Shown piece after piece: positions 1-16,613 of a DNA stretch of 64,000 nucleotides. A model generated the notes under the pieces. It was not told where the DNA came from. It did no database searches and saw nothing but the letters and a program-made list of their open reading frames with translations. The stretch is taken from the NCBI RefSeq assembly GCF_030341905.1, contig NZ_JATAAF010000004.1:67001-131000 (forward strand), read 5' to 3'. The stretch's first letter is position 1. Every line of letters begins with the position of its first letter. Source of the stretch: Porticoccus sp. W117 (GTDB lineage Bacteria > Pseudomonadota > Gammaproteobacteria > Pseudomonadales > Porticoccaceae). The position numbers and the translations under genes were made by a program.

Positions 1-909
1 AATGTTGCAACATTTGCGAGTGTGGCCAACGATTTTATTGGGTGGGACGGAAACTGCCATGATAAAAACAATAGCATCCTGAATGGTATTCGACACTGTA
101 CAGCAGGCGACCCATATGTCAGCGATAATATCATGGTTGTTTGGGGTGACTCTCATGCTGCTGCACTGCAAAGAGGACTGGTTTCTGCCATAGAGGAGCA
201 AGGTGTAAACGCAGTTATATTGTGGGAAGCTGGCTGCCCACCGGTATTTGGCGTGTTGAAGGAGGAAAACTCTTATGGGTTTTCTGATACCGAAAACTGC
301 CGTAAACATATAGAGAGTGTTAAGGAATACCTGAGTAATAATAAACACCGGATATCAAGCTTTATGTGGATTGCCAGATGGAGTTATTACTTCTCTGGAG
401 AGGGCTATGGCATAGATAGAAAAAATACGATACAGGTTTGGCCTGAAGATGGAAGCTATGATAGAGAGCCCCAGAGTATAGTGCTTAGAAACGCTATGCT
501 TGATACAGCGAAATTCTTAAAAGAGCTGAGTGTGCCCATTTATCTTCTGGAGCAATTTCCAGAGTATAAAAATTACCATTCGAAAAGAGCTGCCATATCT
601 CTGCTCAATAATCAGAGAGAGTTGTTAGAGATAGAGAGTAATGAATCTATAGAAGACTATCGGGATGTTGAACTGCGCCAACGTTTTGTTCAGGATTCTT
701 TCGAATCGCTATTAGATCATGATGACTTTCGTATTCTAAAAACTCACACCATCTTTTGCGATACAAAAAATTGTTCGGCGTTTTATCGTGGAGTTCCTGC
801 TTATGCCGACAATAATCATTTGTCGACTGAAGCATCCAAAAAAGTGAGCTTTGTATTTCAACCAGCGATAGACGCAGCCAAGCATCATAGAGCGGTAAGT
901 CAAGAATGA
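1..909 (+). CDS. SGNH-domain acyltransferase C-terminal part (5' truncated)
   Basis: The frame is open to the left edge, so the true start lies outside the window; the GTG at 22 is only the first possible start inside. The visible part of about 300 residues carries a block I motif GDSHAAAL and near its end DNNHLS, which fits the Asp-x-x-His block V of SGNH hydrolases. This pattern is typical of the C-terminal SGNH domain that follows an integral-membrane acyltransferase-3 domain in OafA-type polysaccharide O-acyltransferases. The membrane half would then be upstream (inference). Its stop overlaps the next gene's ATG (ATGA at 906-909), so the two are probably translationally coupled. A free-standing SGNH esterase is the alternative. 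Confidence 0.72.
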   Translation, partial: NVATFASVANDFIGWDGNCHDKNNSILNGIRHCTAGDPYVSDNIMVVWGDSHAAALQRGLVSAIEEQGVNAVILWEAGCPPVFGVLKEENSYGFSDTENCRKHIESVKEYLSNNKHRISSFMWIARWSYYFSGEGYGIDRKNTIQVWPEDGSYDREPQSIVLRNAMLDTAKFLKELSVPIYLLEQFPEYKNYHSKRAAISLLNNQRELLEIESNESIEDYRDVELRQRFVQDSFESLLDHDDFRILKTHTIFCDTKNCSAFYRGVPAYADNNHLSTEASKKVSFVFQPAIDAAKHHRAVSQE

Positions 910-2477
910 ATCATGTTGATGCGAAGATCGTTACTCTTGATGAGTGTGTAGAGAAACAATGGGATTTTGTGATAGCCGGCTCTGGTATAGGGGGTGGGGC
1001 AGCAGCCTATGCGTTAACGAAAAAAGGTTTTCGTGTGCTTATGCTGGAAAAGGGGTGCTTTAACTTATTAAGCGGCGATGTCTCAAAAGAGCAAGAGAGT
1101 CCCAACGAAAGGGTCAAGCATGGAAAATGGCCTTATCAAATCAAGAGTATTATTGATGGTTCAGAAAGCCATACTTGGCCGCCGCTAGGATGTGGAGTCG
1201 GAGGAACAAGTCAGCTATATGCGGCTGCTTTGCAGCGATTTGAAGCGGTTGATTTTAAACAAACTTGCCGTGACGGAAAGGCATTATTATGGCCCTTTGG
1301 GTATTCAGATATAGAGCCTTATTACCAGCAGGCTGAAGCTCTTTTCTCCGTTAGTGGTACCAAAAACCCCCTCAGTCCTGATGAATCTTATGATCTTAAT
1401 GACCCTCAAGCTATGTCTGAGGTAGATAGTTGCTTTTTCCAGATGTTCAGGGAAAAAGGATTAAACCCTTACAGACTGCATGTTGGGATTGATTATAAAG
1501 ATCAGTGCTTCGAATGTGGTGGAAAAGTTTGTTTAAAAGACTGCAAGAAAAATTCATACAATAGTTGTATAGAGCCTGCGATGAATACCGGCAACCTATG
1601 GTTGGCGACAGAGTGTGAAGTGTCTACTGTTTCCGCAAATGCAAAGTCTGCCGAGAGTCTTGATGTTGTTCAGAATGGAAAATTATTTAAGATTCATTCG
1701 AAAAATATAATTCTATCCTGTGGGGCCTACATGTCACCGGTCATTCTGAGGCGCTCCAAAAATAAAAGCTGGCCCAGTGGTATTGGGAATGATCATGATC
1801 TGGTTGGTCGAAATTTAATGTTTCACGTTTCTGATTTTATTGCTATTTGGAGCGGGTCGAAAAAATCGAAAAGCGGTGCGAGAAAAACAATCGCTATTAG
1901 AGACTTCTATCAGCATGGCGATCTTAAACTTGGTGAACTTCAATCTTCAGGCTTGGATGCAGATTATGGAAATATCTTGTATTCACTCATAATGAAATTT
2001 GAGCAAAGCAAATTTTCAAAAATAAAGCTATTCAAACAGTTGCTTAGAATTCCCGCGTATCTTGGCTCAAAATTGTTTGGTGGCGCTACGGTTTTTGCAA
2101 CCATTCTTGAGGACTTTCCTTATAAAGAGAACAGAGTGGTGGACTGCAAGGAGGAAAAATCAGGATTTTTTGTTGAGTACTCTATTCACGATGAGTTGAA
2201 GCATAGACTCAAATATATGAGAGAGAAAGTCAGGCATTCAGTCGGTGTCAAAAGAAGCATGGTACTTAGCTCGGGTGTTCCCCTGAATTTTGGACATCCA
2301 TGTGGCACCTGCCGAATGGGTTCTGATCCCAGCTCTAGCGTTCTCGATGAAGATTGCAGGGTACATGGGCTGAATAACCTTTATGTTCTAGATGCTTCTT
2401 TTATGCCTACTAGTGGTGGAACAAACCCAAGTCTGACCATTGCTGCTAATGCCCTGAGGGTGGCGAGCAAGTTGTAA
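906..2477 (+). CDS. GMC-family FAD-dependent oxidoreductase
   Basis: A 523-residue protein with an N-terminal Rossmann FAD motif (AGSGIGGGAAAYAL, about residues 20-35, then LMLEKG) and the C-terminal GMC signature (GHPCGTCRMG, then VLDASFMPTSGGTNPS). The histidine in NFGHP is where the family's catalytic His lies. The family oxidises alcohols or sugar hydroxyls with FAD. A cysteine cluster around residues 200-222 (C-x2-C-x4-C-x3-C, then a further Cys) could bind metal or Fe-S, as in some membrane-associated sugar dehydrogenases; this is inference. No signal peptide is visible. It is coupled by a 4-bp overlap to the SGNH gene upstream and followed after 46 bp by an SDR, so the pair may oxidise and then reduce the same sugar or lipid. 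The substrate is unknown. Confidence 0.85.
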   Translation: MNHVDAKIVTLDECVEKQWDFVIAGSGIGGGAAAYALTKKGFRVLMLEKGCFNLLSGDVSKEQESPNERVKHGKWPYQIKSIIDGSESHTWPPLGCGVGGTSQLYAAALQRFEAVDFKQTCRDGKALLWPFGYSDIEPYYQQAEALFSVSGTKNPLSPDESYDLNDPQAMSEVDSCFFQMFREKGLNPYRLHVGIDYKDQCFECGGKVCLKDCKKNSYNSCIEPAMNTGNLWLATECEVSTVSANAKSAESLDVVQNGKLFKIHSKNIILSCGAYMSPVILRRSKNKSWPSGIGNDHDLVGRNLMFHVSDFIAIWSGSKKSKSGARKTIAIRDFYQHGDLKLGELQSSGLDADYGNILYSLIMKFEQSKFSKIKLFKQLLRIPAYLGSKLFGGATVFATILEDFPYKENRVVDCKEEKSGFFVEYSIHDELKHRLKYMREKVRHSVGVKRSMVLSSGVPLNFGHPCGTCRMGSDPSSSVLDEDCRVHGLNNLYVLDASFMPTSGGTNPSLTIAANALRVASKL

Positions 2478-2523: not shown

Positions 2524-3264
2524 ATGGCTAATAGCAAAGTTGTTGTTATCACAGGTGCTGCTAGGGGCCTTGGGAAAGAGCTGGTTCAAGAATTTTCTGC
2601 TAACGGCTATTCAGTTGCAGCTGTCGTTCGAACCTCGGAATCACAGGAAGCGTTAAGTGACCTGATGAACTCTAACAAGTCAATAACTTGTCATGTGGCA
2701 GATGTTTCTCGTGCGGAGCAGGTAGAGCATGCTTTTGAAGAAATTTTGTCGGTTCATAAGCACGTTGACGTGCTATTCAATAGCGCAGCGGTATATCCAA
2801 AGATAAATTTTTTAGATGAAAGTAGTAACGATTGGGCCGAAGCTCTTGCGGTAAATGTGAATGGCGTTGTCAATTGCTGTAAAACTGTATTGCCATCTAT
2901 GTTGGAAAGAAATTATGGGCGCATATTTAATGTTGGTAGTTGGGCTCACATGGGGCCAATAGAAAACAGTGCCGTCTACTCTGCATCGAAGGGTTGTGTA
3001 AGGGCGCTCACAAAGGCCATAGGTGTGGATATTTTAACTCGAGGTAAAGATGTTCAGGTTCATGAATGGATACCTGGGCACTTGAACACAAGAATGAGCG
3101 ATTTCACCGGTATAGACCCAAGAGAGTCGGCACGTTGGGCTGTGAACATGGTAGAAAATCACAGCACACAATCAGAAAGTTCCATATTCGATGGGGCTGA
3201 ACTCTGGGTGCCCCCAAAGTCGTTAAAACGACGCGTGCTAGATAAACTGCTTTTTTGGAAGTAA
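2524..3264 (+). CDS. Short-chain dehydrogenase/reductase
   Basis: A 246-residue classical SDR. The cofactor motif TGAARGLG is at residues 10-17, a variant NNAG-type motif reads FNSAA near residue 87, the catalytic Ser lies in NVGSW, and YSASKG supplies the Tyr-x-x-x-Lys. The length is normal for the family. It would use NAD(P)H to reduce a ketone or oxidise an alcohol in the cytoplasm. An RBS-like AGAGG lies just upstream of ATG 2524. Its position behind the GMC oxidoreductase suggests a two-step redox inversion of a hydroxyl on a surface-glycan precursor (inference); the substrate cannot be read from sequence. Confidence 0.88.
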   Translation: MANSKVVVITGAARGLGKELVQEFSANGYSVAAVVRTSESQEALSDLMNSNKSITCHVADVSRAEQVEHAFEEILSVHKHVDVLFNSAAVYPKINFLDESSNDWAEALAVNVNGVVNCCKTVLPSMLERNYGRIFNVGSWAHMGPIENSAVYSASKGCVRALTKAIGVDILTRGKDVQVHEWIPGHLNTRMSDFTGIDPRESARWAVNMVENHSTQSESSIFDGAELWVPPKSLKRRVLDKLLFWK

Positions 3265-3282: not shown

Positions 3283-3321
3283 ATGTGTGATTGCACTTCA
3301 AATTGCTGGTTCGCTTTGTGA
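3283..3321 (+). CDS. Possible 12-codon cysteine-rich leader ORF before the flippase
   Basis: ATG 3283 follows AGGAAG (3272-3277) at 5-nt spacing and opens a 12-codon frame encoding MCDCTSNCWFAL. Its TGA (3319-3321) overlaps an in-frame GTG (3318) of the flippase. This is the arrangement expected for a coupled leader peptide. It is too short to be supported by coding statistics and may be chance. Confidence 0.25.
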   Translation: MCDCTSNCWFAL

Positions 3322-4700
3322 AAGATGTCTTGAATACAAATAGAAGAGCTCTTTCCGATATTTATCGAAGAGCATCTTCTCTTGCCTCAACTTCTTTAGC
3401 AAATAGTGCTTTTTGGGTGTTTGTAGGAAGCGGGGGCTATCAGGTAATACGCTTGCTGGGCAATCTTGTTCTTACACGATTACTTTTCCCTGAAGTTTTT
3501 GGTGTTATGGCTATCGTTACTGCGGTGATGATTGGCTTAGGGCAGTTGTCGGATGTCGGGCTTCGTCAGGGGGTTGTAAACAGTGATCGCGTTAATGACC
3601 CTCGTTTCATGCAGACCGCATGGACCCTACAAATTGTAAGGGCTGGGTTTATTGGTTTGCTGGGTATTGCTATCGCGTACCCAATAGCAAGTTTTTATGA
3701 CGCATCAATAATTGCTCCGGTACTAATCTGGATTGCACTTTCTGCATTGATTACGGGCTTTAAATCGATTGCGCCATTGGCCTACGACAAAAGATTGGAT
3801 TTAAAAACCCAGATGTTAGTAGATTTGGGGATTCAGGTTTTAGGTTTAGCGGTAGTTATCGTCTGGGCGTACATTTCTCCAACGCTTTGGGCCCTGGTCG
3901 CGGGGCAAGTAGTTTCATCCGTTCTTGAAGTTATAACCAGTTACTATTTGTTTTCTGGGCATCACAGTCGCTTCGCCTGGGATAAAGAAGTTGTTAAAAA
4001 ATTATTTAATTTCGGGAAATGGATATTATTGTCGTCGATTATTTCGTACTTGGCTGTGCAAGGTGATCGATTGATTCTAGGTGCCTTCTTGTCTATGGGA
4101 GAGCTTGGTAAATATTCGGTTGCAGCAACTTGGGCGGCTATTACATCGTTATTCTCTGTGAATATCTCAACAAGAGTGTTGCACCCCTATTTCAAAAAAG
4201 CTATTGATAACCATTCTGACTATGGGAAAATTTACAGGGTTCGCAATTTACTGAATGTTCTTTATGTCGGTATCTGTATTGTTTTGGCAGCCGTCGGGGA
4301 TCATTTAATTTACTTTTTGTACGATGATCGGTACAGCGATGCAGGTTGGATGTTGCAAATATTAGCTGTTGGCCAAGTAGGCAGAGCGTTAACAGGAACT
4401 TTGATGCCTTTTATGATTGCCAGTGGCGATTCTTTTAGCCAAATGAAATTTAGTACAGCAAATGCGGTAATTCTTATCGCCTCACTTCTTCTGGGTGGGT
4501 ATCTTGCGGGTACGGTAGGTATTGTGGTTGCAATTACAATATCTTCGCTGCTTGCTCATCCTGTCATGATCGCTTATGCAAACCGCCATGGCTATCGGTG
4601 CTTTTTGTCAGATATGTCATTAATTGTCTTTTCAGTCTTGATCTGTATTGCGCTATGGTGGCTCATGGATTCAAGCGTTATTAATGTTTTGTTTAAATAG
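3291..4700 (+). CDS. Wzx-type polysaccharide flippase
   Basis: About 460 residues with 12 or more hydrophobic segments spread over the whole length, typical of the MOP/PST export family that flips lipid-linked oligosaccharides across the inner membrane. The N-terminal region with RLLGNLVLTRLLFPEVFGVM and LGQLSDVGLRQGVV matches the lipopolysaccharide-export subgroup. The start is uncertain: TTG 3291 gives the longest form, but GTG 3318 overlaps the stop of a 12-codon ORF that has a good Shine-Dalgarno sequence (AGGAAG at 3272-3277). It lies between the SDR and a GT4 transferase in one plus-strand run, implying a Wzy-type assembly pathway; no polymerase is recognised in the window. Confidence 0.88.
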   Translation: MHFKLLVRFVKDVLNTNRRALSDIYRRASSLASTSLANSAFWVFVGSGGYQVIRLLGNLVLTRLLFPEVFGVMAIVTAVMIGLGQLSDVGLRQGVVNSDRVNDPRFMQTAWTLQIVRAGFIGLLGIAIAYPIASFYDASIIAPVLIWIALSALITGFKSIAPLAYDKRLDLKTQMLVDLGIQVLGLAVVIVWAYISPTLWALVAGQVVSSVLEVITSYYLFSGHHSRFAWDKEVVKKLFNFGKWILLSSIISYLAVQGDRLILGAFLSMGELGKYSVAATWAAITSLFSVNISTRVLHPYFKKAIDNHSDYGKIYRVRNLLNVLYVGICIVLAAVGDHLIYFLYDDRYSDAGWMLQILAVGQVGRALTGTLMPFMIASGDSFSQMKFSTANAVILIASLLLGGYLAGTVGIVVAITISSLLAHPVMIAYANRHGYRCFLSDMSLIVFSVLICIALWWLMDSSVINVLFK

Positions 4701-4706
4701 AAGCAT

Positions 4707-5870
4707 ATGGATGAGAGACGTTTAAAAGTTGCCTATTTGTGTGAGACTGATCCTGTACATGCCTGGGCGCATTCCGGTGGCAATCAGCGCTTGTTTCGGA
4801 CGATAGATAAACACCTTGGTGATACAACCTACATCGAATATCACTGGGGGTTCTTTCAGTGGGCTAAGGTTTTAATAGATAAGCTACCTCTGAAAATATC
4901 TATGAGGCTTCGATTTCGAGTGCATTTATTATTGTCTCGGTTTATTTCTCGAAGAACAGCGTCAGAATTACGAAAAGGTAATTATGATGTCGTATTTTGT
5001 ACGTACAGTTTTTATTGTCTTGCAAACTTGAGGCTTCCACACTCTTCGCTTCTGGTTTTTTCATCTGACGCAACATATACAGTATATAAAAACTCGGAGA
5101 TTGGTGCTGTTTTTGGATCGTATCTTTCATTATCGCGTAAGTTCGATTCTTATATATACAAGTTGGAGAAGAGGGTATATCAAAATGTGGATTTGGCACT
5201 TTGGCCATCTGCATGGCTAAAGAATAACGCAGATAAATTGTATGGCCTTTCGAATAGTCACTCTTATATGCTGCCTTGGGGAGCAAATGTTGAGGATCCT
5301 GGTCAGCCAGTATTTCCAGAGGCGGCTGACATCAGCGAGCAGGTCAATCTACTATTTGTTGGCAGGGACTGGTTTCATAAAGGTGGCCCCCTTGTGATTG
5401 AGGTGTTGAATTTACTGCTCGAAAGAGAGCACGACGCTCATTTAACAATTGTGGGCTGCAACCCTCCGGAACTACTTAATCATGAAAATGTAACAATCCA
5501 CCCATACCTTGATAAGACTGCCCCTGAGCAATTAGCGATTTTTCAACGTTTGTTTTCCAGGTCTCACTTTTTCGTGATGCCTTCCTATGAGTCCTACGGT
5601 TTTGCTTTTTGCGAAGCCAGTGCTTACGGGTTGCCGATTTTGTGCATAGATGTTGGGGGAGTACCCGTCGAGCAGGGCGTCAATGGGTTTCGTTTGCCTA
5701 TTGATGCAGGGAGTGAGAGCTTTGTCGATAAAGTGCTTTATTACAAGAACAATATCGATGACTACCTAAAGTTAAGGCAGGCATCCAGAGAGTATTACAA
5801 GGATTTTCTTAACTGGGATGCTTGGGGCTCGCGAATGCGAGCCTTAGTTCTAGAACGCTTAAAAAGCTAA
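4707..5870 (+). CDS. GT4-family glycosyltransferase
   Basis: 387 residues with the two-lobed GT-B layout of family 1/GT4. The C-terminal lobe has LLFVGRDWFHKGG (about residue 215), HLTIVGCNP, and a catalytic E-x7-E run inside PSYESYGFAFCEASAYGLP. These enzymes move a sugar from a nucleotide donor to a lipid-linked acceptor with retention, on the cytoplasmic face. It follows the flippase by 6 bp and ends the plus-strand run before a convergent lipoprotein gene. Donor and linkage are unknown. Confidence 0.88.
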   Translation: MDERRLKVAYLCETDPVHAWAHSGGNQRLFRTIDKHLGDTTYIEYHWGFFQWAKVLIDKLPLKISMRLRFRVHLLLSRFISRRTASELRKGNYDVVFCTYSFYCLANLRLPHSSLLVFSSDATYTVYKNSEIGAVFGSYLSLSRKFDSYIYKLEKRVYQNVDLALWPSAWLKNNADKLYGLSNSHSYMLPWGANVEDPGQPVFPEAADISEQVNLLFVGRDWFHKGGPLVIEVLNLLLEREHDAHLTIVGCNPPELLNHENVTIHPYLDKTAPEQLAIFQRLFSRSHFFVMPSYESYGFAFCEASAYGLPILCIDVGGVPVEQGVNGFRLPIDAGSESFVDKVLYYKNNIDDYLKLRQASREYYKDFLNWDAWGSRMRALVLERLKS

Positions 5871-5918: not shown

Positions 5919-6989
5919 TTACTTCTCTTCAAACCAGACTCGGCTCTGACCATCCTTGAAGGTGTATAGAGACAGCTGGTTCCATATGTGTTGAGATATG
6001 TTCTGGTAATGCTCTTTTACAAGTGGGTGTATGCTCGAAGGAATCTTCAGGTTGTCAGGGCTTTGTTCCCCATAGATTCCCATGTAAGTGACCAAGGCGG
6101 CAAGAAAATAAATAGTCGGTTTGCCATGAGGGGCATCATCCTCATATAACTCGGTGGCAGGTATCGTATTCAAAGGATCTAGCTGAAGTACGCTGGCTAT
6201 AACTGGCCCAACTGGTAACATTTTTACCTGTTTCTGGGGTCGAGCTTCGCGAATCTGATCTTGATACTGAATCCACCACTCATGGAATTCACCAAGCGTT
6301 TTGGCGTGATATCGCGAGAATTCCCGCTTAGAAGGCGGAAAGCTCGAGATGTACTGAGCCATATCTGGCCAATTTTCGTAGATATAAATATCGCTCGATG
6401 GGGAGTGGAGGCTTATCCAGTCAATGATCTCCAGTGTCGACGTTAAGGGGGTGCTTCTTGTTGGATTATCGCCATCAAAGGGGGTATTTGGTGACTGGTA
6501 TTGAATAAAGTTGGCTGCTGTCAGTATAACGCTCGTAAAGCCTACATCAGAGAAGCTTTCTCCATTCAAGTCAGGGTCCCAAGCAGTAGGAACTTCGCTG
6601 AACCCCCACTGAGATTTTGGTGGTAACTCAGCATGGTTTCGTAAAAAACCGTATTGGCCGGCAGTGTAATATTTGTTCCCTGCTGCCTTGGCGAGTTTTT
6701 GTAACCAATGTGGTACAGATGTTTCGTTGTTCCCGGCGGGTGCTTCAGGGGAAACATGGTTAATTAAACTGTGCCCGAACAAATAGTTCTTGATACTAGA
6801 TTGACGTTTAATTTTTAGAGTGGGTGTATTTGACGATGTTTCGCCTCCATCAAGCTCAGGTTGGCTATCTACTGAGTTGACTGTTGCTTCGTGGTCTTTT
6901 GATATGGCGCCAGTTGAGTCCGCTTTGCAGGATACTAGGCATAAAAAGCTGCATATAAGAGGAATGAGGAAGGTCTTTTGAGATTTCAT
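5919..6989 (-). CDS. Lipoprotein with GHS-type SGNH-like domain
   Basis: The start is set at ATG 6989 because it gives a lipoprotein signal peptide (MKSQKTFLIPLICSFLCLVSC, Cys21 in an LVSC lipobox); longer forms add an implausible N-terminus. The mature 336 residues begin with a Ser/Thr/Glu-rich linker, then a domain starting at residue about 67 with FGHSLI (His73, Ser74), GQYGFLR, TAWDPD, an AANFIQ segment, IYIYENWPDM and YEDDAPHGKPTIYF. The Ser block and the Asp...His block resemble SGNH hydrolase blocks I and V, with GHS in place of GDS. It is a close paralogue of the C-terminal half of the lipoprotein at 14621-16225. A surface esterase or deacylase is a reasonable guess, but the function is not established. 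Confidence 0.62.
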   Translation of the reverse strand: MKSQKTFLIPLICSFLCLVSCKADSTGAISKDHEATVNSVDSQPELDGGETSSNTPTLKIKRQSSIKNYLFGHSLINHVSPEAPAGNNETSVPHWLQKLAKAAGNKYYTAGQYGFLRNHAELPPKSQWGFSEVPTAWDPDLNGESFSDVGFTSVILTAANFIQYQSPNTPFDGDNPTRSTPLTSTLEIIDWISLHSPSSDIYIYENWPDMAQYISSFPPSKREFSRYHAKTLGEFHEWWIQYQDQIREARPQKQVKMLPVGPVIASVLQLDPLNTIPATELYEDDAPHGKPTIYFLAALVTYMGIYGEQSPDNLKIPSSIHPLVKEHYQNISQHIWNQLSLYTFKDGQSRVWFEEK

Positions 6990-7222
6990 GGCGAATGATT
7001 TCCGTTGTTTATAAAGTAAAGCTCTGGACTCAGGGATTAGAGGATTATACATTTGCTGCTTCAGATATATACCACACATACATAGGATTATTCCCTTTAG
7101 GCGAAAATGCATGCTTATGTGGAAACACAGAGTCTACTATGTAGACTTTATGCGTTCGTAGCAATCTATGCTACGGGTATCTTGGGCGAGTTCACCGTAT
7201 AACTAATAATTGTGAAGCAAAT

Positions 7223-8464
7223 ATGACGTCTATTGGTTTCCTTATTCCAGAGTTTCCAGGCCAAACCCATGCATTCTTTATGAGAGAGCGTGCAGAATTG
7301 GCCAATCTGGGTGTTCATACAGAATTGATCTCTACTCAGAGGCCTGTGGAAGGAGAGGGGATGGCTCAGCACTCTTGGGCAAGTGAGGCAGCAAAGGATA
7401 CACACTATTTGTTTCCAATAGGCGTTAAAAGTATTGCAAAGGCGTTTTTCTATATTCTGATGTCTGGCCCAGCTGCTTGGTGGCGGTCGGTAAAGTCAAT
7501 TTTATCGAGTTCAGAGTTGACCTTTAAGGAGCGTTTACAGCTCCCAGGCTTACTGCTCATCGGAAGCAATTTAAAACAGTGGGCACAGAGAACAGGTGTA
7601 GAGCATATCCATGTCCACAGTTGTGCTAATTCGGCCCATGTCGCTATGTTTGCTCGTTTGTTGGGTGGGCCGTCTTACAGCATAACTCTGCATGGCCCCA
7701 TGCAAGATTATGGTGGTAATCAGGCTGAAAAGTGGCGCCATGCGAGTTTTGCTATCATCATTACTAAGGAGCTTGTTGGAGAGGTCAAAAATAAGTTGCC
7801 AGCCTGCTCACTTCCCCCTATACATCTGGCTCCCATGGGCGTGAATACAGACTCATTTCGACGCTCTTCAACATACCTTCCCCCTCAGCGGGATCAACAA
7901 GTCCATTTGGTGTCCTGCGGCCGTTTAAATTTTGTGAAAGCTCATGACGATTTAGTGCGCGTTGTTGCTCTTTTGCGTGACAAGGGTGTCAAGGCGCACC
8001 TGAGAATATGTGGTGCTGCTGACTCTCAAAGTGCTACAGATGGAACTGGCTATGTAGATAGCCTCGAATCGTTAATTGCTGAGCTTGGTGTAGAGTGTTC
8101 CGTAGATTTGTTAGGGTCTATTTCTGAAGAACGAGTAAAAGAAGAGTTGGAAAACGCACACTTCTTCTGTCTTGCAAGTTTGAAAGAGCCTTTGGGTGTG
8201 GCAACTATGGAAGCCATGGCTATGGAAATGCCCGTTATCGTTACTCGAAGCCCTGGAGTGTTGGACCTGATAGAGAGTGGCAAAAATGGGGTTTTGGTTG
8301 AGCCTCGTTCCCCTACTGAATTTGCAGAAACAATAGAAAACTTGCTAGAGGCCCCTGATGCTATTGAGAGTCTCGGCAAACAAGGGCGTTTGACTGTCTT
8401 GCAGCGCTTTAGCTCAAAGGTTAGTGCAAAAGCAATATTTGATGGCGTTCGTCAAACTAGCTAA
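7223..8464 (+). CDS. GT4-family glycosyltransferase
   Basis: 413 residues. The N-terminal lobe has IGFLIPEFPGQTHAFFMRE, a form common in exopolysaccharide (colanic-acid type) transferases, and HIHVHSCANSAHVAMFA. The C-terminal lobe has LVSCGRLNFVKAHDDLV and the E-x7-E run in KEPLGVATMEAMAMEMPV. It acts on the cytoplasmic side with a nucleotide sugar. Upstream is 233 bp separating it from the divergent lipoprotein, long enough for its own promoter. The end overlaps the possible start of the acyltransferase gene, so the two are cotranscribed. Confidence 0.87.
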   Translation: MTSIGFLIPEFPGQTHAFFMRERAELANLGVHTELISTQRPVEGEGMAQHSWASEAAKDTHYLFPIGVKSIAKAFFYILMSGPAAWWRSVKSILSSSELTFKERLQLPGLLLIGSNLKQWAQRTGVEHIHVHSCANSAHVAMFARLLGGPSYSITLHGPMQDYGGNQAEKWRHASFAIIITKELVGEVKNKLPACSLPPIHLAPMGVNTDSFRRSSTYLPPQRDQQVHLVSCGRLNFVKAHDDLVRVVALLRDKGVKAHLRICGAADSQSATDGTGYVDSLESLIAELGVECSVDLLGSISEERVKEELENAHFFCLASLKEPLGVATMEAMAMEMPVIVTRSPGVLDLIESGKNGVLVEPRSPTEFAETIENLLEAPDAIESLGKQGRLTVLQRFSSKVSAKAIFDGVRQTS

Positions 8465-9530
8465 TGGGGAGCATAGATGGGCCGTGTGTGCGCAACTTAA
8501 TAACGAATTACAAGAGAATACAGAACGGCAAAATTGGGTAGATTATGCCAAAGGCATAGGGATCATCTTGGTTGTTTATGGCCATGTTGTGCGAGGTTTA
8601 TATAGTGCTGGAATCCCTATTTCAGAACGCTTCTACCAAATATCTGATAGCGTTATATATAGTTTCCATATGCCGCTGTTCTTTTTTCTATCCGGGCTTT
8701 TCTTCCTAAGTACTTACAATAAATACAAAGCAGGCAGAAGCGTTTTAAAAAAAGTGGATGTTATTGTATATCCCTATATTATCTGGTCTTTGCTTCAAGG
8801 CTTTATAGAGGTTTTTTTAGCTCAATACACTAACGGTGATGTTAGTGCTTCGGAGGTTTTGCGGCTTTGGGATCCGAGAGCGCACTTTTGGTTTTTGTAT
8901 GCGTTGTTTTTAATTTTTTCCTTATGTTGCGTAATATTCTGGGCTTTTAAAGGGGCTGCTATATACGTTGCCTTGCTATCGTCTTTGGTTATTTATTTAT
9001 GGCCGTCAATATTGCCTGAATCAACAGCATCCATTCATATTTCGCAGAATCTTGTATTTTTTATAGCTGGCATCGCTTTTTCTCGCTTCAGTTGCCACGA
9101 TTTTTGGCGCAAGAAGTGGCTGCTTTATATTTCAATAGTCGGTTTTTCTCTTAGTCAGTATGTATTTCATATAACTTGGGGAGGGCACTACGGCGACCGG
9201 GGTGTCAACACGTTGTTGCTGGCCCTAGTCTCTATTACTCTGATTGTTTCGCTTTGTCATAGGTTGCCAGATAAGGGGTTGGCATGGCTCCTTACACTGG
9301 GTGTTTCTTCAATGGCGATTTATCTTATTCACATTTTATCTGGAAGTGGTGTAAGAATTTTATTGCAGTCATTGCTTTCCATAAACAATTTTTGGGTTCA
9401 CCTTGCCTTAGGAATGGTTTTCGGGTTGCTGCTGCCTATAGTGTTTTCTGCAGTAGTGAAAAAGATAGGATTTAAATATATTTTCTCTGCGCCGATTAGC
9501 CGATGGGTTCAAAGGTTTGGGAAGAAATAG
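8424..9530 (+). CDS. Membrane acyltransferase (acyltransferase-3 family)
   Basis: About 350-368 residues with about ten hydrophobic segments. The family signature NWVDYAKGIGIILVVYGHV at residue about 37 carries the conserved His of O-acetyltransferases of the fucose-4-O-acetylase/OafA type. It would acylate a sugar of the surface glycan using an acyl-CoA or similar donor. The start is unclear: ATG 8424 overlaps the GT4 gene by 41 bp, ATG 8442 by 23 bp, and GTG 8484 follows a GGGGAG sequence at 8466-8471. It converges with the GT4 gene on the other strand with only 2 bp between the stop codons. Confidence 0.84.
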   Translation: MQKQYLMAFVKLANGEHRWAVCAQLNNELQENTERQNWVDYAKGIGIILVVYGHVVRGLYSAGIPISERFYQISDSVIYSFHMPLFFFLSGLFFLSTYNKYKAGRSVLKKVDVIVYPYIIWSLLQGFIEVFLAQYTNGDVSASEVLRLWDPRAHFWFLYALFLIFSLCCVIFWAFKGAAIYVALLSSLVIYLWPSILPESTASIHISQNLVFFIAGIAFSRFSCHDFWRKKWLLYISIVGFSLSQYVFHITWGGHYGDRGVNTLLLALVSITLIVSLCHRLPDKGLAWLLTLGVSSMAIYLIHILSGSGVRILLQSLLSINNFWVHLALGMVFGLLLPIVFSAVVKKIGFKYIFSAPISRWVQRFGKK

Positions 9531-9532
9531 AA

Positions 9533-10708
9533 CTATGCCAAACAAGATTCGTAGATAGAGCTCAATTTTTCAGATGCAAATTTTGTGGAGTAACGTTCTT
9601 CCATGCGGAGTTTTGCTGCTTTGCCCAATTTCTGGCAGTAGTCAGGCTCGTTTAAAAGTTTTTCAAGGGAGTTACTTAATTGTTCTGCAAGGTTGTATTG
9701 CATTGGCATAAATAGCGAGTTCATATCAGGGCGATTTATTCCTTCCCAGCGATTTGTGTTGGAGTTTAATGGAACGTTTAATAGTAAGCCTGATTGTTCA
9801 TGTTCGATAGATTCAGGTATGGCGAAAATATCCGTACAAACGCTGGCAGTTCCTTCCATGCCCGCTTCTATGGGAACCCAACCTAAAGATTCATCCAGAG
9901 TGGGGAAAAGCAGCATATCTGTACTTTTCATGAATTCTTTCACAGTAGCATTGGGTTGAGCCCCAAGTAACTTTATCCAAGGATTACTCTGGGCGCGCTG
10001 CATGATTTTTTTCGACTCTTCCGACTCCTCGCCACAGTATGTGTGCTTATCCAAGCTGGAAATGACAGATAACTCGATATCTGCCCCTTTTTCCTGTAAA
10101 TTTTCCACGGCTAGTATACAAGCCAATAATCCTTTCCGAAGGTAATCATTGCCAACAAAAAGCAGCTGCAGTGGCCTATTTGAAACAGGTGGCTTTGGTG
10201 GGGTATCAATTATTGTTGAGCTGCTGATGCCTCCTCGAAAAACACGTATCTTCTTTGCAATTTCATATTCACCTGCTGCCTCAAAACCTTGAATGGCAAG
10301 CTTTGCGGCACTGTCTGATAAGCCCAATAATGCTGTACAGCGATCAGAGCGCAATGCCTTTCTGGTCAATTCGGTTTGCCAGTTTTTTACTGGGCCAAAA
10401 TGCCGGGGAAACTCAAGCTCAAATGAGACGACAAAGGGTGGCCCATTCATCGGAACCTTGTTAAAAGTGTGGATAAGGTCAGTTCTGGTTGGAAGTAAAA
10501 TGCGGTTGTTTTCATAAAAATTATGGCGGGATGAGATCCCTTCCCAGGGTACTGTTCTCAGCTTATAAAAATTATAGTTATCTGGTTTCAGCGCATAGCT
10601 AACTTTTTCGAGTCCATAACAAGGGCTGACTATTCCGATGTTGATGCCACCTGGGGCAAGGTTGATAGGTTCTCTATCAGGTATTTTAATGGCATTTAAC
10701 GAAGTCAT
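9533..10708 (-). CDS. GT4-family glycosyltransferase
   Basis: 391 residues, GT-B type. The C-lobe shows LQLLFVGNDYLRKGL (about residue 180), a disordered insert with KHTYCGEESEESKK, and the E-x7-E run in DESLGWVPIEAGMEG. It is the last gene of the minus-strand run, and its ATG overlaps the stop of the GT39-type gene (ATGA at 10705-10708). The N-terminal lobe lacks an obvious donor signature. It probably adds a sugar to the same glycan as its operon partners. Confidence 0.84.
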   Translation of the reverse strand: MTSLNAIKIPDREPINLAPGGINIGIVSPCYGLEKVSYALKPDNYNFYKLRTVPWEGISSRHNFYENNRILLPTRTDLIHTFNKVPMNGPPFVVSFELEFPRHFGPVKNWQTELTRKALRSDRCTALLGLSDSAAKLAIQGFEAAGEYEIAKKIRVFRGGISSSTIIDTPPKPPVSNRPLQLLFVGNDYLRKGLLACILAVENLQEKGADIELSVISSLDKHTYCGEESEESKKIMQRAQSNPWIKLLGAQPNATVKEFMKSTDMLLFPTLDESLGWVPIEAGMEGTASVCTDIFAIPESIEHEQSGLLLNVPLNSNTNRWEGINRPDMNSLFMPMQYNLAEQLSNSLEKLLNEPDYCQKLGKAAKLRMEERYSTKFASEKLSSIYESCLA

Positions 10709-12471
10709 TTTTGGCCTTCTTTCAGCACTGAAAGGTCTGTGCGGTCCGTGCAGTCAAATACAGTAACGTTAGGCTCTAGAAAGAACGGCTTTCTGGCATC
10801 GAATGATACTGCTTTGGAGCAGCTTTTTTCCAGTTCGCTGTAAAAGTTAAAAAACTGTGGTACACCACTCTCATTCAAAAAATACTCATAATTTGATACG
10901 ACCAAGATGCTGAACCCTTTCGATGTCCAGTACTCTAAATGCCACTCTTCATCCTGAAGGGGCCATGCGAAAGGTTTTGCTGCGCCTTCCAGGCTGTCGT
11001 CGTCCGCCTTTTCCAAGCCAAACATTACTCCAGGCAACCCATAATAATAAACCGCATCGGGGTCAGACGATTCGATTAAGCGCTCTTGAGCTTGTTCGGG
11101 TAGCGTGATGCCATATTTGTCGGCAAGGTTTTGATGTCTCCTTCGCTCATCGGTTTGCGCTATTTTTTGCTTGGGCAAGCGGATTTCAAATGAAGTTAAA
11201 ATTTTTCTATCTTTATAGTTAGCATTAATGAAATCTGCTACTTCATCAGCGATCGGCTTTGCAAGTGCTTGTCGCCATATCTCTAGTGAGCCAAGTAAAG
11301 AAACAGACAAAAAAGCCGCTAATGTCAAACCGCATGCCAGCTTTGTTCGCTTGGGCCGATCTTTGTGAAATATCGCATCTGTAATCACTAGAGCAGCAAA
11401 AAGCTGCATACACGTGAAGTAAGGTATCCAAAGGCCTGAGTGTTGTCGCGATCCAGAAATCACAATAACAACAATCATCGAGATAAATGTGGCCGTCCAA
11501 AATAAATTAATTAAGCTCTTCGAACCTATCGCGCAATACTTTGAGTTTATATAAAAAGGTGTAATCAGGAACAGGGCTGTAGCTATCCAATTGATGCCAT
11601 AGGATGGGTGTCCGGCCCAGTATGCCCATGCGGAAAAGCTGCTTACTAGCCCTTCCTCACTTCTGACGGACATTTGCGCTTGAATTTTTTGATAGTCAAT
11701 AAAATTTTGTATGTCTAATAAAATTCCGATATTTAACACGCACCATATTGGTAGCATGAATGCGGACGAAATAAGAATTGTTTTAATGCCCAGCTGAGCA
11801 CCATATCGGAGAGAGAAGAGTATTAAATGGCCAAGCATAAGTGGTGCGGCCATAATAACGTAAGAATGTTTAAAGCTAACTGCTAGGGCGATGCTTACAC
11901 CCAGGAAGAAGTCATATTTTAGGCTATGAGGATTATCGTTTTTTTTCAGAATGGCAATGAAAACCAGCACTGAGCAAACGGATAAAGGAATGTCGCTCTT
12001 GGATATATGACATAGAAATATCATTGCTGGAATTAGCAATCCGAGAATTCCGATAGTAAGACAGCTCTTTGAAGGTAATCGTAACGACTTCGCGAAAATA
12101 TAAAACAAAGGAGCGATAATTGCCCCCATGGCAGCAGTAACTGTGCGAGCTGTTAAATAAAAGGCTGTTGGGTCCGAAAAGTATTGTGCGCGAAATTCTG
12201 CGGTGCTGTGCCAAATAGGGATGATTCGGCCAATAGCATAAAGAATGCCAAGAAAAACTGCATTTATGTAGTTTAGTAAAGGAGGGTAAAAGTGCTGACC
12301 AGGTATCAGCTGCCCAGTTAGAACCTTTGCTGCTTCATTGACTCGCTCGTCCCCGTGCCAGTAACCGTAGTTCACTCCGATAAGACGAAGCGCAAAGGCC
12401 AGTATAAAGAGGAATAAGAAGATTCTTTTTGGTGGCGCGTCGGCAATGTGTTGGAAATAACGACTGAGCAT
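10705..12471 (-). CDS. GT39/ArnT-like polyprenyl-phosphate-sugar glycosyltransferase
   Basis: 588 residues. The N-terminal two thirds hold many hydrophobic segments, and the first periplasmic loop has GYWHGDERVNEAA. The Asp-Glu there corresponds to the catalytic acidic pair of GT-C enzymes of the PMT/ArnT family, which use a polyprenyl-phosphate sugar outside the inner membrane. The C-terminal 180 residues are a soluble periplasmic domain (DAVYYYGLPGVMFGL and others). It lies in one operon with a UbiA-type prenyltransferase and a small EamA carrier, which could make and flip its donor. The acceptor is unknown. Confidence 0.78.
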   Translation of the reverse strand: MLSRYFQHIADAPPKRIFLFLFILAFALRLIGVNYGYWHGDERVNEAAKVLTGQLIPGQHFYPPLLNYINAVFLGILYAIGRIIPIWHSTAEFRAQYFSDPTAFYLTARTVTAAMGAIIAPLFYIFAKSLRLPSKSCLTIGILGLLIPAMIFLCHISKSDIPLSVCSVLVFIAILKKNDNPHSLKYDFFLGVSIALAVSFKHSYVIMAAPLMLGHLILFSLRYGAQLGIKTILISSAFMLPIWCVLNIGILLDIQNFIDYQKIQAQMSVRSEEGLVSSFSAWAYWAGHPSYGINWIATALFLITPFYINSKYCAIGSKSLINLFWTATFISMIVVIVISGSRQHSGLWIPYFTCMQLFAALVITDAIFHKDRPKRTKLACGLTLAAFLSVSLLGSLEIWRQALAKPIADEVADFINANYKDRKILTSFEIRLPKQKIAQTDERRRHQNLADKYGITLPEQAQERLIESSDPDAVYYYGLPGVMFGLEKADDDSLEGAAKPFAWPLQDEEWHLEYWTSKGFSILVVSNYEYFLNESGVPQFFNFYSELEKSCSKAVSFDARKPFFLEPNVTVFDCTDRTDLSVLKEGQK

Positions 12472-12500
12472 TCGCTTTTTCTCTTAGATATGCGGTGTTT

Positions 12501-12863
12501 TTAGCGTGTCAGCAGAAATAGCCCGGCAACAATGATAAGGGTTCCTGCTATCTTGTTGACGCTCACTGTTTCGCCAAGTAATCCAACGCCTATAAAAAGA
12601 ACCATAATAAAGCTGATTCCGACAAATGGGTAAGCGAGGGATAGTTCTGTATTTTTTAAGGCAAAAAGCCATAACACAGTTCCTACTCCATACAATGCAA
12701 GACCAATTAGAACGAATGGAGAGGTCAATAGGTGGAAGGCGCGAACAATAGTACTGTCATCGTGCATATGAGTTATGGTAGATACACCATACTTAAAAGA
12801 AACCTGTGCGATGGCAGACAAAGTGACGCTGCTAAGAATGACCCATAAATTGCTCATACTCAT
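12501..12863 (-). CDS. Small EamA/SMR-like four-helix membrane protein
   Basis: 120 residues with four hydrophobic helices and PFVGISFIMVLFIGVGLLGE near the third, the pattern of half-size DMT-superfamily proteins such as ArnE/ArnF and SMR transporters. Such proteins act as dimers. In polyprenyl-phosphate-sugar pathways they have been proposed to flip the lipid-linked sugar. It sits 3 bp after the HAD-UbiA gene and 29 bp before the GT39-type gene, which favours a flipping role over drug efflux (inference). The start is ATG 12863 or 12857; no strong RBS is visible, consistent with coupling. Confidence 0.72.
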   Translation of the reverse strand: MSMSNLWVILSSVTLSAIAQVSFKYGVSTITHMHDDSTIVRAFHLLTSPFVLIGLALYGVGTVLWLFALKNTELSLAYPFVGISFIMVLFIGVGLLGETVSVNKIAGTLIIVAGLFLLTR

Positions 12864-12866
12864 AAT

Positions 12867-14309
12867 TTAAAAACTCACGGGGATCAATTTGGCGGTAATT
12901 ACAGCGATACCCGCTAACAGTACAGATACCAAGCTGATTTTATCTTTCAGGGCGAAAACCACGGGGTCCATGCTTATTTTTCCGCGCTTTGCCCATAACC
13001 AAGCTCGATATATCCAGAATAGAAGGAGTGGGCAAATTAGCCATAAAATTTGAGGCGACGCATAGGACTCCACTACATACTCACTGTTTAGGTAAAGGCT
13101 TAATGTCAACGTTGCCAAGCCGCCATTGACAATGCCTGTTGTCATAATTACGTCAATCTCATCTTTCTTGTAATTGCGGCCATTCACCTTTTCTTGGTCG
13201 GACAGTGAAGATACTTCTATGTAGCGCTTCATGTAGGCAAGGCTAAGGAAGAAGAAAACCGAGAAGTTGAGCAGCCAAAGAGATAGGGGGGCTGCTATGA
13301 CGGTGCTTCCAGCAACAATGCGGATGGTGTACAGGCAAGTTAACGAAATGACATCAATGGTTGAATAGTGCTTTAAGTAGAACGAATAAAGGTTCGTAAT
13401 TAAAAAGTAAATTGAAAGTACAACGATAGTTTTTGTGTTCAGCAGTAGGCCGCACGCTACGAAGGCAAATACAATCAGAGCAGCACTGCTAACGAGGCCA
13501 GCTCTGATCGAAAGGTTGCCCGAAGCGAAAGGCCTGTTTTTCTTTTCCGGGTGTGTTCTATCAGACTCAATATCGAGAAGGTCATTTACGATATAGATTC
13601 CAGATGCACAAAAAGAGAACGCGAAGAAAGCGACAACAGAAAGGCCGACAGAGGCAATATCCGAATATTGGTGGGAGAAAATAAGCGGAACGAATATTAG
13701 ACAATTTTTGGCCCATTGGTGAGGCCTGGCTGCTTTGCAAATTATTTTTAGCAAAGGGGGTTTGTTTCTAACGTCAACAGTTGTTTTGCTCTGATCTTGC
13801 GTAAGCTGGCTAATGTTGGCTGACAGGTTAACAAACCCACGGTAACTGGCGGCTTCCCATATTGGGAGGTCGGCTTTGGAGTCCCCAATGTACTCAAATT
13901 CTCCCACCCCTGCCATTTCCTGAATTTTTGCTAGTTTGGCACCACCTTTTAGGTTTTGCCCGGGAGAAGATGCAATCACTGCATCGAAAATGCCTAAGTG
14001 GTTGGCAACCTGTTCTGCAATGGTTTCATCCGATGCTGTTGCCAGAATAACCTTTCTCCCCAAAGCCTTTTGTGTCTTTAGGTATTCCACAACCTCCGAG
14101 TTATAAGGGAGGTGCTTGGCTGAAAAGGTGTAATGGTCGGCTAGGTATCTCTTGAAGTCCGAGCGTCCTTTGAATAAGGCCTTCAGCAGTGCGGCAAACC
14201 GGTTTAAATGTTTCAAGCTGCGCGCAGCCAACTCCAGAGCAATATCGCCCTTTATAAGTGTGCCATCCATATCAACGAATATGGGGGCTGAGGTCTGTGA
14301 GTGTGACAT
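12867..14309 (-). CDS. HAD phosphatase-UbiA prenyltransferase fusion (DPPR-synthase-like)
   Basis: 480 residues with two domains. Residues about 10-170 are a HAD hydrolase: FVDMDGTLIKGD (nucleophile Asp and DxT/V pair), a Thr-containing motif in VILATASDE, and GDSKADLPIW as motif IV. Residues about 190-480 are a UbiA-type membrane prenyltransferase with NDLLDIESDRTHPEKKNRP as the first Asp-rich motif and about eight helices. UbiA proteins of this subgroup move phosphoribose from PRPP to polyprenyl phosphate. The HAD part could remove the 5-phosphate afterwards (inference). It heads a four-gene minus-strand run with the small carrier, the GT39-type transferase and a GT4. The fused architecture is known from other bacteria. 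Confidence 0.82.
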   Translation of the reverse strand: MSHSQTSAPIFVDMDGTLIKGDIALELAARSLKHLNRFAALLKALFKGRSDFKRYLADHYTFSAKHLPYNSEVVEYLKTQKALGRKVILATASDETIAEQVANHLGIFDAVIASSPGQNLKGGAKLAKIQEMAGVGEFEYIGDSKADLPIWEAASYRGFVNLSANISQLTQDQSKTTVDVRNKPPLLKIICKAARPHQWAKNCLIFVPLIFSHQYSDIASVGLSVVAFFAFSFCASGIYIVNDLLDIESDRTHPEKKNRPFASGNLSIRAGLVSSAALIVFAFVACGLLLNTKTIVVLSIYFLITNLYSFYLKHYSTIDVISLTCLYTIRIVAGSTVIAAPLSLWLLNFSVFFFLSLAYMKRYIEVSSLSDQEKVNGRNYKKDEIDVIMTTGIVNGGLATLTLSLYLNSEYVVESYASPQILWLICPLLLFWIYRAWLWAKRGKISMDPVVFALKDKISLVSVLLAGIAVITAKLIPVSF

Positions 14310-14620: not shown

Positions 14621-16225
<1,605 letters not shown>

Positions 16226-16613
16226 TCCTTCTGTAGCTATTTGATTTCAAAGGGTATTTGGTTAAAAGGCGCAGGCGCTGCTATATGCTTGCGCCTTTTT
16301 GTTTGGCTTGATCTCATTTTTGGCGGGAATTTTGCATTTGGGGGTTTTAAGGGGTTGCAGTGCCAATTTTGTGGCGTTGTTTGAAGGCCTCTAAGTATGT
16401 GAAGCTCTTGGGTTTTGTGAGGCGGTTCAAATTATTCTCCCGTGAACGATACAGTCGTCACAACAATGTAGTTCCTTCGTGGTATTTCACTATTTGATAG
16501 ATAACAATTCCGCCTAGCTACTGGGTAGTAAAGTTCTACCGTTTGGCAGCGAATTGCAGAGCTTGGCTGTGCCCAGGTTTCTTGATAAGAGCGAACTGAC
16601 TTCTAGACATCTT
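16226..16613. other. 388-bp intergenic region
   Basis: It contains the terminator of the lipoprotein gene (16264-16300) and, further on, presumably the promoter of the large dihaem protein. I checked for riboswitch-like structure and RNA genes and saw none I could support. Confidence 0.6.
16264..16300 (+). terminator. Rho-independent terminator
   Basis: AAAAGGCGCA (16264-16273) pairs with TGCGCCTTTT (16290-16299), followed by more T. It lies 38 bp after the lipoprotein stop. Confidence 0.85.

Follow-up and report, generated by a model that had tools for sequence, protein, structure and literature searches.

Some polysaccharide gene clusters encode hydrolases that act on their own product: PslG (GH39) and PgaB are a glycanase and/or deacylase encoded within the cluster of the polymer acted on. 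Ester-cleaving enzymes of glycans are found in the SGNH superfamily, whose acetyl esterases (CE2, CE3, CE12 and the Axe2 type) share with the protein described here the fold and the S-G-N-H order of residues. The SGNH domain that accompanies AT3 acyltransferases (PF19040; OatA/OafB type) likewise combines an SGNH fold with glycan acyl chemistry, and one is encoded in the same cluster as our protein. The roles of the SGNH blocks are given in the part of a review of SGNH proteins on which we draw (PMC9487903), together with two departures from the Block V acid, namely CE2 enzymes without the Asp and a DXH motif in AlgX. DUF4886 (PF16227) supplies the closest solved fold, 4i8i, at 13% identity to our protein, and no activity is listed for DUF4886 in that part of the same review.

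Here we describe a gene of a 64,000-nucleotide stretch of Porticoccus sp. W117 (hereafter the window), located at 5919-6989, and its product, P0002. Together with a second window protein, P0001, it belongs to a family that differs from each of these systems. Block I reads GHS or GNS where the superfamily has GDS, and the conserved acid lies at H-4. Unlike the AT3-associated SGNH domain, P0002 is a separate lipoprotein-like protein that lacks an AT3 membrane domain and a PF19040 match. The five DUF4886 proteins that we read have GNS in Block I, like the sister clade of the P0002 family, but DxxH where the P0002 family has DxxxH. The genomic island around the gene resembles the PslG and PgaB systems in encoding putative hydrolases within the cluster, although folds and families differ, the deacylase-like part of the island being an SGNH protein and the GH-A-like part having no Pfam glycoside hydrolase model. 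Features of the window are collected in Table 1.

Table 1. Positions in the window of the two SGNH genes, their motifs and the neighbouring genes
Feature	Position	Strand	Remarks
SGNH domain of the AT3-fused kind	22..909	plus	PF19040, E 1.7e-47
GMC oxidoreductase	906..2477	plus	adjoins SDR and SGNH genes in two Paracoccus plasmids
Short-chain dehydrogenase (SDR)	2524..3264	plus	
Wzx-type flippase	3291..4700	plus	PF13440, E 1.8e-48
Glycosyltransferase	4707..5870	plus	
SGNH-fold lipoprotein gene, product P0002	5919..6989	minus	356 aa
P0002 Block V, DDAPH	6126..6140	minus	Asp284 (H-4) and His288, both invariant
P0002 family signature, IYENWPDM	6360..6383	minus	GNS clade: N206 to Gly, P208 to Ala
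P0002 Block III, TAANF	6507..6521	minus	Asn160, proposed oxyanion hole, assigned by position
P0002 Block II, GQYG	6648..6659	minus	Gly111/Gly114, proposed oxyanion hole, assigned by position
P0002 Block I, GHSL	6765..6776	minus	proposed nucleophile Ser74 (His73), from alignment
P0002 signal peptide	6927..6989	minus	ends in lipobox-like LVSC (Cys21); by eye from translation
Glycosyltransferase	7223..8464	plus	matches in the G744, G135 and G265 clusters
AT3 acyltransferase	8424..9530	plus	PF01757
Stretch between the SGNH genes	10705-14309		HAD-UbiA fusion, small transporter of EamA type, 588-aa protein lacking a Pfam match; perhaps a module for polyprenyl-phosphate sugars
HAD-UbiA fusion	12867..14309	minus	possible polyprenyl-phosphate sugar step
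Second SGNH protein, P0001	14621..16225	plus	534 aa; 21 Gly, two He_PIG Ig-like stretches (Pfam), then shared domain
Glycine run of P0001	14684-14746		21 consecutive Gly coded by GGTGGC repeats, directly after the lipobox-like (first) Cys
P0001 GHSL motif	15377-15388	plus	
Protein after the second SGNH gene	16554-20993		1479 aa; Big_5, PKD and di-haem CCP/MauG cytochrome domains; weak beta-propeller matches

Predicted fold, conserved residues and distribution of the P0002 family

A preliminary description had placed the gene at 5919-6989 and left its strand unstated. The coordinates are correct and the strand is minus, on which the frame is open for 356 aa; the plus frame has many stops. P0002 begins with MKSQKTFLIPLICSFLCLVSC, which by eye is signal-peptide-like and ends in LVSC, a sequence that we take from general knowledge to be lipobox-like. 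An alternative in-frame ATG at 7112 would lengthen the protein by 41 residues, and the ATG at 6989 is by eye the likelier start because of the signal-peptide-like sequence that follows it and ends in LVSC. Inverted repeats flanking 5919-6989 were searched for and none were found.

The AlphaFold model of P0002, built from a 49-row alignment, had a mean pLDDT of 95.1 and a pTM of 0.94. In a Foldseek search with this model GDSL-type chains came first (best E 9.9e-5), and other folds appeared from rank 22 (E 0.02). VIA-align placed 4i8i, the DUF4886 structure, at the top (Z 17.3, rmsd 3.3, 221 residues aligned), followed at Z of 13.3 or less by mostly SGNH/GDSL structures, among them CE2, CE3, Axe2 and rhamnogalacturonan acetylesterase, and by two phage proteins; families beyond this list stay possible as structural relatives. 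The SGNH-like fold expected from the motifs is borne out by these predictions, and a three-layer SGNH-hydrolase fold is well supported for the modelled P0002.

The motifs FGHSLI, PTAWDPD, IYIYENWPDM and PHGxPTIYF, picked out beforehand, were found in the translation. G72, S74, G111, G114, N160, D284 and H288 are invariant in 54/54 aligned members, both window domains included, so that Ser74 and the His of APHG (His288) are in place as anticipated; several Trp and Tyr are invariant as well. Read in the order S-G-N-H, the SGNH residues are S74, G111/G114, N160 and H288, with the Gly and Asn blocks assigned by position. Residue 73 is His in 49/54 members and Asn in the 5/54 that make up the GNS sister clade. 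The proposal that His takes the place of the Block I Asp needs one correction, namely that within the family this His alternates with Asn and not with Asp. Block V reads DxxxH instead of DxxH, the usual but non-defining arrangement of the SGNH acid: residue 285 (H-3) is D in 33 members, N in 15 and another residue in 6, and the Asp at H-4 (D284) is present in 54/54.

The domain common to P0002 and P0001 is matched above cut-off by neither a Pfam nor an NCBIfam model, in agreement with the original impression of a family without a name. Lipase_GDSL_2 appeared in 2/49 members with a best E of 0.12, and no Pfam SGNH model reached cut-off. A PDB sequence search with P0002 returned no solved relative, a designed protein at E 0.29 being the one entry of note, and a PDB search with the 49-row profile returned none either. 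Alignment of the family with five DUF4886 sequences by hhalign was weak (global E 0.0004, probability 15%; local E 0.0064, probability 6%); H288 was aligned with the His of DUF4886, and GHS with GNS, the latter in the global mode alone. PF16227 had no match in P0002 or P0001, among the 49 members or in the own genome. Given the weak hhalign support, we do not claim membership of DUF4886 for P0002. Filing under CE2, some members of which lack the Block V Asp, was also rejected, as no test favours CE2 specifically.

Scanning of species-genome contigs yielded 58 relatives of the domain, mostly from Bacteroidota, with two Myxococcota, Catenovulum and two Rhodobacterales genera also represented; scanning of viral contigs yielded no relative. 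With 58 relatives and six residues invariant in 54/54, conservation of the domain is real and far beyond chance. The 49-row alignment comprises 47 of the 58 loci plus the two window domains. Eleven loci were omitted, six as redundant by eye with rows that were kept (L013, L015, L016, L017, L019 and L021) and five as having broken or cut frames (L047, L049, L055, L056 and L057). The family occurs in 3/299 sampled Pseudomonadota genomes and, across 390 genomes of the window's order, in the own genome only; it is absent from the sole congener and from the 16 other listed members of the window's family. Six plasmid records carry the domain, of which three (H1, H2 and H6) were examined.

In a tree of 54 domains, five alphaproteobacterial sequences form a GNS clade, which is split from a GHS clade of 49 rows with support of 100/99. 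Both window genes fall in the GHS clade, where their placement is left open. Their domains are 52% identical over 310 columns, close to the half estimated at the outset. A recent duplication was considered as the origin of the two window genes; with their positions in the tree open, two separate acquisitions are possible.

The island and related clusters in other genomes

In the own genome (G000), a gap of 60.5 kb lies between the end of tuf at C34:29028 and the start of rplC at C34:89546. The corresponding gap is 0.78 kb in the congener G438 and 0.62 kb in G363, and in G388 the contig stops inside tuf. The island therefore splits the str-S10 ribosomal neighbourhood, with window positions 1-22000 lying within G000:C34:29.0-89.5 kb. 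The GC content of the window is 0.42-0.46 up to 15 kb and 0.49-0.50 at 15-21 kb, where the second SGNH gene and the next gene lie; at 24-36 kb the value is 0.54-0.55. Further pieces of the island range from 0.42 to 0.44, the NRPS/PKS piece is at 0.52 and the tuf side at 0.56. This GC-poor island of about 60 kb is most likely DNA acquired from elsewhere. In addition to the genes of Table 1, it carries Wzy, GH-A-like, AT3 and DegT genes, as well as a chain-length-type gene and a tyrosine-kinase-like gene recognised by eye. This gene context supports a role for P0002 in a polysaccharide pathway.

Outside the window, at G000:C34:38647-49912 (L125, L079), an NRPS-like protein is encoded beside a PKS of 2169 aa. 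The NRPS contains formyltransferase, adenylation, luciferase-like monooxygenase and PP-binding domains. It was sought in 19 genomes, a non-random set made up of carriers of the SGNH domain or of the GH-A-like partner described below, plus the congener G438. Full-length-like matches with 46-49% identity were obtained in G265, G135, G115, G083, G067 and G744, and G748 has the NRPS as two pieces of one frame, for a total of 8/19 genomes including the own. Among the matches listed, those of L008, L022, L004, L005, L001, L007, L020, L026, G266, G276 and G438 were partial only. A PKS lies near the NRPS in 7/7 other Pseudomonadota genomes with the NRPS. A GT2 relative (GT_a) occurs in 6/7, with no match in G265, and Wzx likewise in 6/7, none being seen in the G083 regions examined.

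Proteins of the P0002 family fused to a GH domain are encoded within the clusters of G744, G135 and G067; the Wzy of G135 scores below its Pfam cut-off. In G115 and G083 a GH-A protein carries a divergent N-terminal GHSL domain and is accompanied by a second divergent GHSL gene. G748 has a GHS gene (L056) on the NRPS contig and another (L054, L143) on the GH-A contig, the contigs being paired by length, and in G265 the cluster and the GH-A gene lie on separate contigs. The divergent sequences form a second SGNH-like family, represented by L091:6691-7671 and L091:7671-10226 in G115, by the L092 equivalents in G083 and by L136:7563-8693 in G135. Both G115 sequences have the canonical DxxH, the G115 and G083 copies have no Pfam match, and the G135 gene is 51% identical to a G115 gene.

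On a plasmid of Paracoccus liaowanqingii the gene order is PKS, Wzy-like, AT3, GMC, SDR, SGNH, Wzx, GT and NRPS, with the SGNH gene overlapping the SDR gene by 4 bp and the Wzx gene by 4 bp. P. marcusii has a similar order in a block without AT3, and in both species the GH-A match sits on another plasmid record. The window retains the order AT3-SGNH, GMC, SDR and Wzx, with its SGNH gene inverted and located one glycosyltransferase further on. Ruegeria conchae has a divergent SGNH gene amid polysaccharide genes, adjoining a UbiA/GtrA/FAD-oxidoreductase/SDR block. By eye, no polysaccharide cluster is visible around Catenovulum L008, which has housekeeping-type genes around it, or around Cognatishimia L048, which lies beside an rpoB-like gene. 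The PKS/NRPS pair has possibly been noted before as an orphan in roseobacters, for which the portion of PMC4062626 used here names the PKS Inhi_1972 and the NRPS Inhi_1974.

A GH-A-like partner domain

A second uncatalogued domain is fused to the SGNH domain in L008, L028, L058, L062, L063 and L109, and is encoded by the adjoining gene in L018, L024, L030 and L036. The own genome has a single copy of 545 aa at C34:60357-61994, roughly 11 kb from 5919-6989 and 5 kb beyond the window. Read from its first possible start, the gene shares its initial 4 bp with the end of a Wzy_C gene, and an AT3 acyltransferase gene follows. Enzymes of clan GH-A have two catalytic Glu residues, the first of which is preceded by Asn (NE). 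The partner alignment has two invariant Glu in 9/9 rows, E274 in YSNE and E415 in YEGG, which are putative catalytic residues of the clan GH-A type.

The partner model had a mean pLDDT of only 67, with low-confidence stretches. Its best match by VIA-align was a GH51 arabinofuranosidase (Z 19.5), and rows for heparanase, xylanase and GH39 lay within 2 Z units of it, so that no substrate follows. The matched rows include GH51, GH39, GH10, GH5 and GH44 enzymes, heparanase and beta-glucuronidase, all presumably members of clan GH-A. At moderate model confidence, the partner thus appears to resemble a clan GH-A (beta/alpha)8 barrel; searches with the Pfam glycoside hydrolase models gave no match.

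The partner occurs in 8 of the 299 Pseudomonadota genomes, comprising 3/3 SGNH carriers and 5/296 others. Chance would produce this co-occurrence about once in 80,000, a figure that is to be read with the three carriers not being independent, since two are fusions from one family. In the family to which G672 belongs (Membranihabitans, under Saprospiraceae; Bacteroidota), 28 of 120 genomes have the SGNH domain, 42 the partner and 13 both, where 9.8 would be expected (one-sided Fisher p 0.11), which gives no clear association. The partner was found in 20/50 SGNH-carrying genomes, a search that omitted L038, L041, L044, L047, L049, L053, L055 and L056; seven of the 20 had supplied rows of the partner profile, and the match in G731 covers only 36 profile positions. 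Around the 58 relatives themselves, the partner lies in the flanks of seven, all of them rows of its profile, and is absent from those of 51, the flanks reaching about 10 kb on both sides for only 34/58. On these counts some Pseudomonadota clusters and some Saprospiraceae show a firm pairing, and many Bacteroidota copies stand alone. Of 25 plasmid records with the partner, three (H9, H11 and H23) were examined, and one of these three loci had no surrounding polysaccharide cluster. On plasmid pTB2 of Roseobacter denitrificans (69 kb; L144), the GH-A-like gene adjoins genes for a calcium-binding protein, glycosyltransferases and an acyltransferase.

Proposed function

We somewhat favour the reading that P0002, as an exported and membrane-anchored lipoprotein, and P0001, likewise an extracytoplasmic lipoprotein, are serine O-acyl esterases that edit the polysaccharide of the island beside a glycanase, with the activity and substrate, the location and the direction (removal of acyl groups over transfer) suggested by fold, conserved residues and gene context. 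The glycan would be assembled on a lipid carrier, after which Wzx would flip it and Wzy polymerise it, and it may be decorated by the AT3 acyltransferases and perhaps also by the PKS/NRPS pair. P0002 and P0001 would then remove or edit its acyl groups, and the GH-A-like protein of the island would cut its backbone or side chains. In P0002, Ser74 would attack the ester with His288 as the base, oriented by Asp284, and the oxyanion would be held by Asn160, a Block II Gly and the Ser74 amide.

Several points count against this reading. SGNH folds are found in O-acyltransferases too, and 5919-6989 is opposite in strand to its window neighbours, and therefore outside their operon. Further points are the unclear association with the partner in the 120 genomes, its presence in only 20/50 SGNH-carrying genomes and its absence from the flanks of 51/58 relatives, the settings of L008 and L048, the partner's location on another plasmid in both Paracoccus species, the one plasmid locus of the partner that lies outside a polysaccharide cluster, and the DxxxH of Block V. 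The less likely activity of an O-acyltransferase, which would move an acyl group, supplied for example by AT3, from its donor onto the nascent polysaccharide, has perhaps a limited chance of being correct. The cluster does contain AT3 proteins, and in a Paracoccus plasmid the SGNH gene overlaps that for Wzx. According to the part of PMC9487903 cited above, the SGNH domains that accompany AT3 are transferases. An AT3-type SGNH domain is, however, already encoded in the cluster at 22-909. Moreover, 9/10 scanned Bacteroidota SGNH proteins without a nearby partner end in a T9SS sorting tail, and 56/58 loci have no Wzx or Wzy by profiles of low reach, built from four and three proteobacterial sequences. 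Hydrolysis fits better than transfer, because secreted, T9SS-tailed members stand far from an acyl donor.

Those same T9SS-tailed relatives, several of them from Bacteroidota species with alga-derived names, could instead point to a nutritional carbohydrate esterase for foreign (e.g. algal) polysaccharides that is in the island by chance. The Ig-like stretches of P0001 agree with such an enzyme, as does the position of Catenovulum L008 outside a polysaccharide assembly cluster (by eye), but among Pseudomonadota the gene is located repeatedly in clusters of that kind, and we regard this explanation as rather improbable. It is more improbable still that P0002, though descended from an SGNH enzyme, binds glycans without being catalytic. 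The invariant Trp and Tyr could line a sugar-binding cleft and the Block V acid is displaced, yet Ser, Gly, Asn and His are invariant in 54/54 members from three phyla, which argues for catalysis.

Extending the favoured esterase reading, we tentatively suggest, as an idea that is itself rather unlikely to hold in full, that the island and its alphaproteobacterial relatives produce a hybrid Wzx/Wzy polymer whose decoration, of acyl or aminoacyl type, is made by the PKS and NRPS and edited by the SGNH and GH-A unit. This unit of an esterase and an endo-glycanase would remove or rearrange the decoration outside the cell, and could be a single polypeptide in some cases and carry RTX-type repeats in others. 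A furanose-containing glycan would fit both the UbiA-HAD gene between the SGNH genes and the Ruegeria UbiA/GtrA/FAD-oxidoreductase/SDR block.

No recognisable treatment of a GHS-type SGNH family, or of an SGNH and GH-A pair, was encountered in searches of the open-licence PMC literature. The GHS/GNS SGNH and GH-A-like domains have no Pfam model and, by sequence, no solved relative, yet they recur together in several phyla. Both mark a polysaccharide cluster with PKS and NRPS genes in Roseobacter-type bacteria, on Paracoccus plasmids and in the own genome, and through this cluster a connection of orphan PKS/NRPS genes with surface glycans can be put to the test. If the proposal is true, biofilm research would gain a tool as well, in the form of two enzymes that together edit an acylated exopolysaccharide.
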